34,665 bases of DNA from Bacillota bacterium (GTDB lineage Bacteria > Bacillota > Limnochordia > Darwinibacteriales > Darwinibacteriaceae). This document shows, piece by piece, positions 24,214-27,102 of the stretch. The notes beneath the pieces are model-generated. The model searched no databases and was not told where the DNA came from. It was given only the letters and a program-made list of their open reading frames with translations. The stretch is taken from positions 1-34,665 of the forward strand of contig JAAYRS010000013.1 in assembly GCA_012518645.1 (NCBI GenBank). Direction: 5' to 3'. The position numbers were made by a program, and so were the translations under genes. Position 1 is the stretch's first letter, and every line of letters starts with the position of its first letter.

Positions 24214-24600
24214 TTAGAAGACAAACTGTACTTTAAATCCTAATTTTGGTTTTTTGGGTTCTCTTTCTATGCGCCACAAAAGGTGCGGTTCCAGTTTAGT
24301 GTCTTTGATCCGAATAGGTACCCCTAGGGCGAATTGGGGCTGCCATTCCTTGTTAGAAAGAAGATCAAGCTGGAGCCTGTTTTGAAGCAGGCCTAGGGAA
24401 TACTGCATGTATCCGGTTAAACCGAAATGCCGGCCATGATTAAAGATTAGGCCTCCTAAGCCCCCTTCCCAATTGTGGGCCTGGACACAGACACCTCCTG
24501 CTAAGCGTTCTTTTTGCATCTCCACCCAGTAACCTTGAGTATATTCCGGCTCTTGGCCGGGGTTAGCTTTGGGGGTTACTGGGCCGGGGTAAAAAAACCT
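24214..24600 (-). CDS. Beta-strand-rich ORF directly after the secretin; open from 24600, ORF-track start GTG 24525; possibly a frameshift extension of the secretin
   Basis: Open frame FFYPGPVTPKANPGQEPEYTQGYWVEMQKERLAGGVCVQAHNWEGGLGGLIFNHGRHFGLTGYMQYSLGLLQNRLQLDLL...LGFKVQFVF; Pro-rich linker then alternating beta strands, C-terminal Phe. Confidence 0.6.
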   Translation of the reverse strand, partial: RFFYPGPVTPKANPGQEPEYTQGYWVEMQKERLAGGVCVQAHNWEGGLGGLIFNHGRHFGLTGYMQYSLGLLQNRLQLDLLSNKEWQPQFALGVPIRIKDTKLEPHLLWRIEREPKKPKLGFKVQFVF

Positions 24601-26180
24601 TCATCTACAATTCCCTTTTCTTCATCCACAATCTTGGGGATTAAGAAAATAGTCATTTCTGTTTGGGTCCTCTTGGTCTCTTTCCACTGGAAAAGCTTCC
24701 CTAAAATGGGCAATTGGGATAGGAACGGAATCCTGGAAATGTTCTCATCTTCCTGTTCCTGCAGCAAGCCTCCTAAAATAATGGGCTGGCCGTCCTTAAC
24801 CCTAATGTTAGTTTCCACTTCCCTCGTCCTGACCTGAGGGTATTGGCTTTCTGTTTTCCAAATAAAGGTGCTTACTTCCGGTTTAACCAAAATCGTTATA
24901 TATCGGTCTTCGGAAATCCTCGGGGTAACTTTAAGATTAATCCCTGCTTCCAGGGTCTCAATCCTTTGATTGCCCTCTTCATCTTTAAGGATAACAGGCA
25001 CCTTATCGCCTACGAAAATACTGGCTTCCCGGCCGCTTAAGGTCGCAATTTTAGGGTTGGCCAAAAGTTTGGCTTCGCCCTTTTCTTCTAAGATTTTCAG
25101 GGCTAAAATCAGCTCCCAGGGCTCCCAGTTCAGTTCGAAAAAGACCGGGGCGTCACCGCCTGAAAAAGAAGGTGTTCCTGTGAGATCAATGCCTAAATTG
25201 CGCATGGCGTCAGTAGACATTTCCTGCACCCAGAGCTCCAAAACCACCTGGGGCAGGGGTTGATCGAAATCTGCCAGGAAGAGATCAATCTCCGCCAGCT
25301 GCAGATCCGTCCCCCGCACAATAATGCTCTTTCTTTCCTTATCTATTTTAATACTCTCTTCCGGGATTAAAGAAGCAAGGGCCTCAGCCGCTGTTTCCGG
25401 CTGGGCATAATTTAGCCCGTAAACTTTAATCCTTTCCCCTCTTTGCTCCTGCAGATCCCCCACAAGTAAAGAATGGGCGCCCATCTCCACCTGGAGAGGT
25501 ACTAATTGTTGAATTTGTTTAATTACTTCCAGAGGATCTCCGTTTTTTAGATCCAAGTAAAGCCGTTTTGTTTCTAAGGAAGGATCGGCAATTAAATCTA
25601 AACCCAGTTCCGCACTGAGATCTTTAAAAACTTCAAGCAGTGAACTATCTTTTTTTGGAACCGCTGTTGCCGCCAAGGATCGGTCCAAAGTTTGAATCAA
25701 TTCTTCCGCTTGATCTAAAGTTTTTTCGGAACCTTGCAGTACAACCAGATTCCCCTCCGGCAGGATATAAACATCGCCTGCCGGCATAATCAAGGCTAAG
25801 GCCTCTAGGGCTTCTTGAGCAGGAATCAGCTCCGTTTGAACATAGCGGACATTTTTTTCCTTTATGCCCTGCAAGCGTTCTTCGCTGGCTACCAGCAGGG
25901 TCTTCCCTTCCAAACGGTAAGTATGGCCTCCATGCTGGGAGATAAGATCTAAGGCCTCATCCCACGAGACTTCTTTTAATTGAAAACTGGCCCGGCCCTG
26001 CACTGAAGAATCCACTAAAACATTTAAACCGGCGCTTTCCCCTAAAAGCTGGTAAATTTCCTTATATTCGGCCTGATCAAAAAGTAAATCCAATTCCTGG
26101 GCAAAACCGACTGTGCTGATTAGAAACCAGGCCAGGACGATACTAGTTAGTGCTAACCATTTCTTTCGCCTGGTCATCAA
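24576..26180 (-). CDS. pilQ: Secretin (PilQ/GspD family) with N-terminal N0/STN and N1-like domains
   Basis: Signal peptide; LLFDQAEYKEIYQLLGESAGLNVLVDSSVQGRASFQLKEVSWDEALDLI; secretin core ANPKIATLSGREASIFVGDKVPVI...ETNIRVKDGQPIILGGLLQEQEDENISRIPFLSQLPILGKLFQ. Confidence 0.93.
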   Translation of the reverse strand: MMTRRKKWLALTSIVLAWFLISTVGFAQELDLLFDQAEYKEIYQLLGESAGLNVLVDSSVQGRASFQLKEVSWDEALDLISQHGGHTYRLEGKTLLVASEERLQGIKEKNVRYVQTELIPAQEALEALALIMPAGDVYILPEGNLVVLQGSEKTLDQAEELIQTLDRSLAATAVPKKDSSLLEVFKDLSAELGLDLIADPSLETKRLYLDLKNGDPLEVIKQIQQLVPLQVEMGAHSLLVGDLQEQRGERIKVYGLNYAQPETAAEALASLIPEESIKIDKERKSIIVRGTDLQLAEIDLFLADFDQPLPQVVLELWVQEMSTDAMRNLGIDLTGTPSFSGGDAPVFFELNWEPWELILALKILEEKGEAKLLANPKIATLSGREASIFVGDKVPVILKDEEGNQRIETLEAGINLKVTPRISEDRYITILVKPEVSTFIWKTESQYPQVRTREVETNIRVKDGQPIILGGLLQEQEDENISRIPFLSQLPILGKLFQWKETKRTQTEMTIFLIPKIVDEEKGIVDEGFFTPAQ

Positions 26181-26181
26181 G

Positions 26182-27102
26182 TCACCTCCCCATCCTGACC
26201 GTAAAGACCCGGTCGTTTTGTTTGAATTCTACGCTGCGTTCCAAAACAGCTGTTAACTCCCAACCGTGAAAGGAATCCCCCAGCTCCAAAAGTTCAGTAG
26301 AACCTTCATATTCGATTAGGGCCAGGTTTTCTATTCCGGTTTTAAGCAGTCCCTTCAGCACAAAGTTAGGCAAGTCCTCCGCTTGGACCAGTTCTAAAAC
26401 CTGTAGCCACTCTTGGCTGGTGGTCACGCCAATAATACTTTGTGCTGCTTGATCCCAGGCCAGCTCCCTCTGGGGCAAAAGCCTCTGGGCCATCTCTAAA
26501 ATTGCTGGGCCGCGGCCGTAAAGGACGGCCGCGCTGCGGGTGGATAATTCCCGCCCGGTTTCTGCCGGTTGATCGCTGACAACCTGCGCCGATGTTTCTT
26601 GATCGTACTGCTTAACCACTGCTTGGGCCAACTCCAAATCGGCGCTGAAACCAAAGAGCACTAAAAGCCCCCGTTCCCCATCTACATAGCTTTTAACAGC
26701 CGGCACAGTCAAAGAGACCAGCCGCTGGGCTTCTTCCACTTCCACGTGCCTAATGGGAACAAAAACAAAATCCTCGCTTCCGAAGGCCGTTTTTAAACGT
26801 TCGCTGCTGCCTACCACTAAAGTGGTGCCCACCACTTCATAACGGTAACCCGTTGTTTTTGTGACCAGATCCAAGGCTTCTTTTACCGTTAGGTTGTTAA
26901 GAACAAAACTAACCTGGCCTGTCACGGAAGGATCCACTAAAACATTATAACCGCCGATCTGGCCCAAAAGGCGGAAAACGTCTGTTAAAGGGGCCTCCTT
27001 AAACTCCATGTTCACCACCTCTTCGGCCCGGGCCGGGGTGAATACTGCACCTAAGATCAAGACGATACTAACCGCTAAGGTCAAACGCCCCCATAACCTC
27101 AT
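26182..27102 (-). CDS. T4P assembly protein: secretin N0/STN + N1-like domains with PilP/GspC-like C-terminus
   Basis: VVNMEFKEAPLTDVFRLLGQIGGYNVLVDPSVTGQVSFVLNNLTVKEALDLV at N-term; LKGLLKTGIENLALIEYEGSTELLELGDSFHGWELTAVLERSVEFKQNDRVFTVRMGR at C-term. Confidence 0.7.
   Translation of the reverse strand: MRLWGRLTLAVSIVLILGAVFTPARAEEVVNMEFKEAPLTDVFRLLGQIGGYNVLVDPSVTGQVSFVLNNLTVKEALDLVTKTTGYRYEVVGTTLVVGSSERLKTAFGSEDFVFVPIRHVEVEEAQRLVSLTVPAVKSYVDGERGLLVLFGFSADLELAQAVVKQYDQETSAQVVSDQPAETGRELSTRSAAVLYGRGPAILEMAQRLLPQRELAWDQAAQSIIGVTTSQEWLQVLELVQAEDLPNFVLKGLLKTGIENLALIEYEGSTELLELGDSFHGWELTAVLERSVEFKQNDRVFTVRMGR

Follow-up and report, generated by a model that had tools for sequence, protein, structure and literature searches.

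Conserved programmed frameshifts are few in ordinary (non-mobile, non-viral) bacterial genes. In csoS2, a non-mobile cellular gene coding for the alpha-carboxysome scaffold, a slip site is followed by a 3' structure without a clear Shine-Dalgarno (SD) stimulator, and the shifted product gains an extra C-terminal domain (PMC5009743). Both CsoS2 forms enter one assembly. In dnaX (tau/gamma), an X_XXY_YYZ heptamer and a downstream stem set the ratio of long to short subunits of one ring, and a reversed form, in which the long product arises from the shift, is found in a few bacteria (PMC5009743). The dnaX heptamer of E. coli is A_AAA_AAG, preceded by a strong SD; of the two heptamers A_AAA_AAG and U_UUU_UUU, the latter shifts less readily in E. 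coli (PMC5009743). Recoding also occurs in a secretion machine, the Shigella type III system, where spa13 and mxiE yield C-terminally extended parts (PMC5009743). There, it is the polymerase that slips. Secretins of the PilQ/GspD type are described with a C-terminal S-domain or a pilotin.

The locus described here lies on a 34,665-nucleotide stretch of DNA, referred to as the window, from a genome of the class Limnochordia, which comprises uncultured diderm Firmicutes. Comparison with relatives makes it very likely that its type IV pilus secretin gene ends in a signal for programmed -1 ribosomal frameshifting; the slipping itself is inferred, as there are no peptide, ribosome profile or reporter data. 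The locus resembles csoS2 in being a cellular gene with a slip site, a 3' structure, no consistent SD stimulator and an added C-terminal domain, but gene and slip site are different, and what is added in the present case, to a pilus secretin, is a predicted barrel of the membrane type. The heptamer class and downstream stem are those of dnaX, as are the inferred mixture of long and short subunits in one ring and, for reversed dnaX, a long product that comes from the shift. Unlike E. coli dnaX, the window has U_UUU_UUU. The secretin domain and operon type are shared with PilQ and GspD secretins, whereas the C-terminal addition is a predicted eight-stranded barrel encoded in the -1 frame, without a match to any known family. 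Polymerase slippage of the Shigella kind is opposed by the downstream stem and by a heptamer of six Ts and a C in one relative.

The secretin matched Pfam Secretin (PF00263) with an E-value of 5e-45 and 153.6 bits, against a cut-off of 27.5, and Pfam Secretin_N with an E-value of 4e-14. The best NCBIfam match, TIGR02515 (IV_pilus_PilQ), scored 199.8 bits, below the curated cut-off of 284.35. The surrounding genes encode PilB-, PilT- and PilC-like proteins, PilM, pilins, the prepilin peptidase PilD and a protein with a weak PilN match. On the basis of the Pfam Secretin match, the sub-cut-off TIGR02515 match and the type IV pilus operon, the window secretin is a divergent, PilQ-like protein. Directly upstream of it, at 26182-27102 on the minus strand, is a gene for a 306-aa protein that has STN/N0-like domains of the secretin N-terminal type but lacks a secretin domain. 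Coordinates of the features discussed below are collected in Table 1.

Table 1. Features of the secretin locus; positions refer to the window unless marked otherwise.
Feature	Position	Strand	Remarks
Type IV pilus secretin, PilQ-like	24576..26180	-	534-aa 0-frame product; TTG start from ORF list (unverified)
SD-like AAAAGGGA	24612..24619	-	14 nt upstream of slip site
Slippery heptamer T_TTT_TTT	24591..24597	-	X_XXY_YYZ phase with secretin frame
Spacer, slip site to stem, 7 nt	24584..24590	-	offset 7 in all 13 species
Stem arm 1, CCCAGTAACC	24574..24583	-	holds 0-frame stop
0-frame stop TAA	24576..24578	-	12 nt past heptamer, within stem arm 1
CCGGC/GCCGG hairpin	24546..24560	-	in main-stem loop; particular to window genome
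Stem arm 2, GGTTACTGGG	24525..24534	-	codons Gly-Tyr-Trp-V of strand 1
-1 frame extension	24214..24591	-	Pro-rich linker and predicted 8-stranded beta-barrel domain, last residue Phe, then TAA; homologues in 13 species
Predicted strands of barrel	19-28, 31-40, 43-52, 57-68, 71-80, 85-92, 100-109, 118-126 (domain residues)		AlphaFold2

On the minus strand, the secretin gene ends with GAA GGT TTT TTT ACC CCG GCC CAG TAA. A preliminary description, made from the sequence alone, had reported within this end a phased T_TTT_TTT, a -1 frame opening just before it and adding about 125 aa, a Pro-rich linker followed by amphipathic beta strands ending in Phe, and a GTG start (24525) falling inside an apparent beta strand. 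All four claims held. The heptamer was confirmed when the sequence was re-read, and the -1 frame, after a TGA at 24603-24601, reads 125 sense codons from TAC (24591) to TAA at 24216-24214. The strands were supported by AlphaFold2 and by face alternation, and the GTG codon corresponds to residue 25, within predicted strand 1 (19-28). In a plain ORF list the barrel shows up as an orphan frame, cut short because its start is placed inside that strand, so similar extensions may be missed elsewhere.

The class Limnochordia is small and was sampled at 73 genomes. The -1 domain was found in eight more genomes of the window's family, with 41-54% identity, in every case directly behind the orthologous secretin and in the same -1 relation. 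The family also includes Peptococcaceae bacterium 1109 (L061), which is placed in GTDB Limnochordia, family DTU010 (PMC8225771). A class-wide secretin search and a scan of named genomes added the family-like L065, G026 and G028/L067 (both f5) and G029 (f3), all with the slip site and the -1 domain. The arrangement is thus present in 13 species. Ten belong to the window's family or lie next to it, f5 contributes two and f3 one, and on a secretin tree these fall in three well supported family-level clades (f1, f3 and f5) with long branches between them. Family members without the arrangement have no close copy of the secretin in their assemblies, and G025/L066 (f4) has a secretin without extension. 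Among 399 sampled genomes from the phylum, the domain was found only in the window's order.

An in-phase heptamer is present in all 13 species with the domain in the -1 frame. It is T7 in 12 of them and T_TTT_TTC in L065, where the homopolymer is broken to a run of six and the X_XXY_YYZ rule is still met. Codon fixation was examined over the C-terminal ~330 codons of the 13 secretins, in which 65 degenerate columns have an invariant residue. A single codon was used by at least 12 of the 13 species at only three of these columns, two of which are the slip codons. Of the two slip Phe codons, one is TTT in 13/13 species and the other in 12/13, and TTT accounts for 148 of the 310 Phe codons (48%) in the 13 genes. 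Protein conservation in the -1 frame begins exactly at the slip site (FFYPSPVT). Both reading frames are retained, the 0-frame with its short tail (TPAQ-stop). Synonymous choice is frozen at the overlap residues F F Y P (with V as GTR) and varies at most other conserved residues. The SD-like stretch noted earlier about 14 nt upstream is present, but its strength and position vary between species (best anti-SD duplex between -4.1 and -11.7 kcal/mol, with differing offsets), and no consistent SD stimulator at ~10-14 nt, the E. coli dnaX spacing, was found among the 13. Such a stimulator is common in bacterial -1 signals without being required.

A 10-bp stem, CCCAGTRACC/GGTTACTGGG, begins 7 nt after the heptamer in 12 of the 13 species when GU pairs are counted; slip site and structure are usually separated by 5-8 nt (PMC4066793). 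This conserved stem was absent from the preliminary description, which had named CCGGC/GCCGG as the downstream element. That part failed, as CCGGC/GCCGG is an inner hairpin of the window sequence only and is not conserved. Arm 1 is CCCRGTRACC or a close variant in every species, and arm 2 sits 30-102 nt after it, past the 0-frame stop, coding for Gly-Tyr-Trp in the -1 frame. Pairing is complete (10/10) in 11 species, 9/10 in one and 7/10 in L060 (G002), which keeps T7 despite the weaker stem. A search of Rfam gave no match above the gathering score.

Because the amino acids account for part of the pairing, arm 2 was redrawn synonymously 2000 times. The observed arms pair at 126 of 130 positions, compared with 117.8 +/- 1.6 and a maximum of 123 in the redraws, and 11 species have a perfect stem where the redraws average 3.4. 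By folding energy, the stem region was only mildly low relative to synonymous redraws (mean z -0.76). As the species share ancestry, the figures cannot be taken as strict probabilities and somewhat overstate the certainty. The codons of arm 2 are also frozen (GGT in 12/13, TAC in 11/11), and since other synonymous sites are saturated, they are not fixed by shared descent alone. The redraws and the codon freezing show that arm 2 is constrained beyond the requirement of the protein.

A separate observation concerns a stretch of seven or eight Gs with TGAG directly behind it (GGG GGG GTG AG.), which lies ~90-110 nt past the slip site and is kept in nine of ten family members (L056, L057, L058, L059, L060, L061, L062, L064 and L065). 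The window lacks it and has GCAGGAGGTGTC instead. Synonymous choice at GGG GGG GTG is frozen in the window's family, and the run appears to reflect a constraint at the RNA level; pairing of the G7 run with the spacer gave no consistent result.

The added domain is predicted by AlphaFold2, with a mean pLDDT of 90, to be an up-and-down barrel of eight long strands, in all of which hydrophobic and polar faces alternate. The C-terminal residue is Phe in the window and in most f1 members. In Foldseek, the nearest solved structures were mostly outer-membrane barrels (OprF N-domain, TM 0.54; NspA, 0.48), but no match reached E <= 0.001 and avidin-like soluble barrels scored similarly. No known family for the domain was found in Pfam, NCBIfam or PDB sequences. 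Of the 73 Limnochordia genomes, 71 encode BamA, and the hosts are therefore expected to have an outer membrane. An outer-membrane-like barrel is thus a model prediction, and its insertion in, or docking at, the outer membrane is inferred as likely without localisation data. It is possible, again by inference, that the barrel anchors the secretin ring or helps to assemble it.

For the longer secretin, the preliminary description had proposed a comparison of homologues, and had held that it would be refuted if relatives had the downstream frame as an independent gene, beginning at a conserved codon and without a slip motif. The opposite was found: T7 or T6C with two frames in 13 species, and one in-frame fusion. 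In the latter, G027 (f3), a single 671-codon frame contains the secretin, linker and barrel; ATGTTTACTAGT replaces the T-run, and there is no stem. Aligned by hhalign to a profile of the 13 -1 domains built without it, the G027 tail gave a probability of 92 and an E-value of 7.5e-7 over 100 columns. The same eight strands were predicted for this domain, from an alignment that includes the -1 domains and is hence not independent. The barrel has been lost in G033 (L037, L081), the sister of G029 on the tree, where a GYW remnant follows several stops. The G033 secretin ends with PFFQKLSDH, and the loss is recent. Distant secretins from other families of the class (L042, L043, L044 and L045) also carry in-frame, beta-rich C-terminal extensions, with an aromatic last residue in three of the four (...GMEF, ...GWAF). 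No homology between the in-frame tails of L042 and L045 and the barrel domain was detected by hhalign, so those extensions may be independent.

The conserved phased heptamer, its spacing, the stem, the -1-frame protein and the in-frame fusion in a relative are shown by comparison, while the slip ratio, rings in which long and short subunits are mixed, and a membrane role are inferred. In the proposed mechanism, ribosomes on the secretin mRNA would reach U_UUU_UUU with UUU UUU in the P and A sites, at the moment when the stem of 10 bp or longer, 7 nt downstream, meets the ribosome entrance. In a fraction of ribosomes both tRNAs would re-pair one base back and translation would continue in the -1 frame, giving a secretin of ~655 aa with the Pro-rich linker and the eight-stranded barrel. 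Most or some ribosomes would stay in frame, add T-P-A-Q and stop, giving the 534-aa secretin. The predicted 0-frame end peptide is GIVDEGFFTPAQ and the predicted slip-spanning peptide is GIVDEGFFYPGPVTPK; in Peptococcaceae bacterium 1109 the predicted ends are ...FFSPGPVTPEAK (long) and ...FFPQAQ (short).

A longer secretin could also arise by transcriptional slippage or through a T lost from the assembly, as the preliminary description had recognized; of the three readings, ribosomal frameshifting fits best. In transcriptional slippage, the polymerase would add one U within the T7 run and normal translation would then give the extended secretin. T7 in 12 of 13 species agrees with this, and the fusion protein would be identical. 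However, the run in L065 has only six Ts while still meeting the tandem-slip rule, and neither T7 nor T6 is a long conserved homopolymer of ~9 or more. Runs that slip efficiently are usually of nine or more. The conserved stem lies downstream of the T-run and would not yet be transcribed while the polymerase is on the run, and its 7-nt spacing suits a ribosome. The stem and the T6C heptamer therefore favour ribosomal slippage, and the transcriptional form is considered unlikely. An assembly error or pseudogene, in which a T has been lost from T8 in a gene that is truly one frame, might be suspected since homopolymers are error-prone and the genomes compared are mostly metagenome assemblies. 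It is all but excluded, because 13 separately assembled species share the frame relation, one of them with T6C; also, the 0-frame tail and the -1 frame are both kept, and conservation of the stem would have no reason.

The remaining alternative, that the barrel is a separate small protein translated by termination and re-initiation coupled to the secretin, or from an independent start, finds some support in six of the 13 species, in which a GTG overlaps the 0-frame TGA (CAGTGACC, i.e. GTGA) and could serve as a coupled start. The other seven, including the window, have GTA there. No start codon for the -1 domain is conserved among the 13 species: the first in the window falls within strand 1, and neither L059 nor L039 has a possible start (ATG, GTG or TTG) in the domain frame ahead of that strand. 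In addition, FF-Y is conserved upstream of the putative start, the heptamer and stem are left unexplained, and, by inference, an outer-membrane barrel begun at that point could have no signal peptide ahead of it. Lacking a conserved start, re-initiation is regarded as very unlikely.

Under the preferred reading of programmed -1 frameshifting, a bolder proposal can be made, in which the shift would set the number of barrel-bearing subunits per ring in the window's order, and the barrels would take the part of a pilotin in anchoring or assembling the ring. This proposal is considered somewhat less likely than not. Because G027 fuses the barrel in frame, a mixed ring is not required in every species. 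The locus points to recoding as a way in which the stoichiometry of an outer-membrane pore can be set, and it bears on the placement of secretins in the outer membrane of Firmicutes. Programmed -1 frameshifting is a known kind of signal; within the literature searched, its place in a pilus secretin, where it would add a predicted barrel, is new. The open-access literature (subscription papers and supplements were outside the scope) yielded no account of a frameshift in any secretin or pilus gene, and none is named in the GeneTack survey or in the sections consulted of the main review. Since the comparative record is complete, with slip site, stem, in-frame fusion and one loss, the proposed frameshift is testable at once.

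Two minor observations concern the genome records. L065 is named Pseudomonadota bacterium, and its secretin groups with that of Peptococcaceae bacterium 1109; the record is likely misnamed or a mixed bin. Also, the assemblies of L057, L058, L060, L062 and L067 break no more than a few hundred bases past the slip site or barrel, near the pilin genes, which may hint at repeats or variable sequence there.
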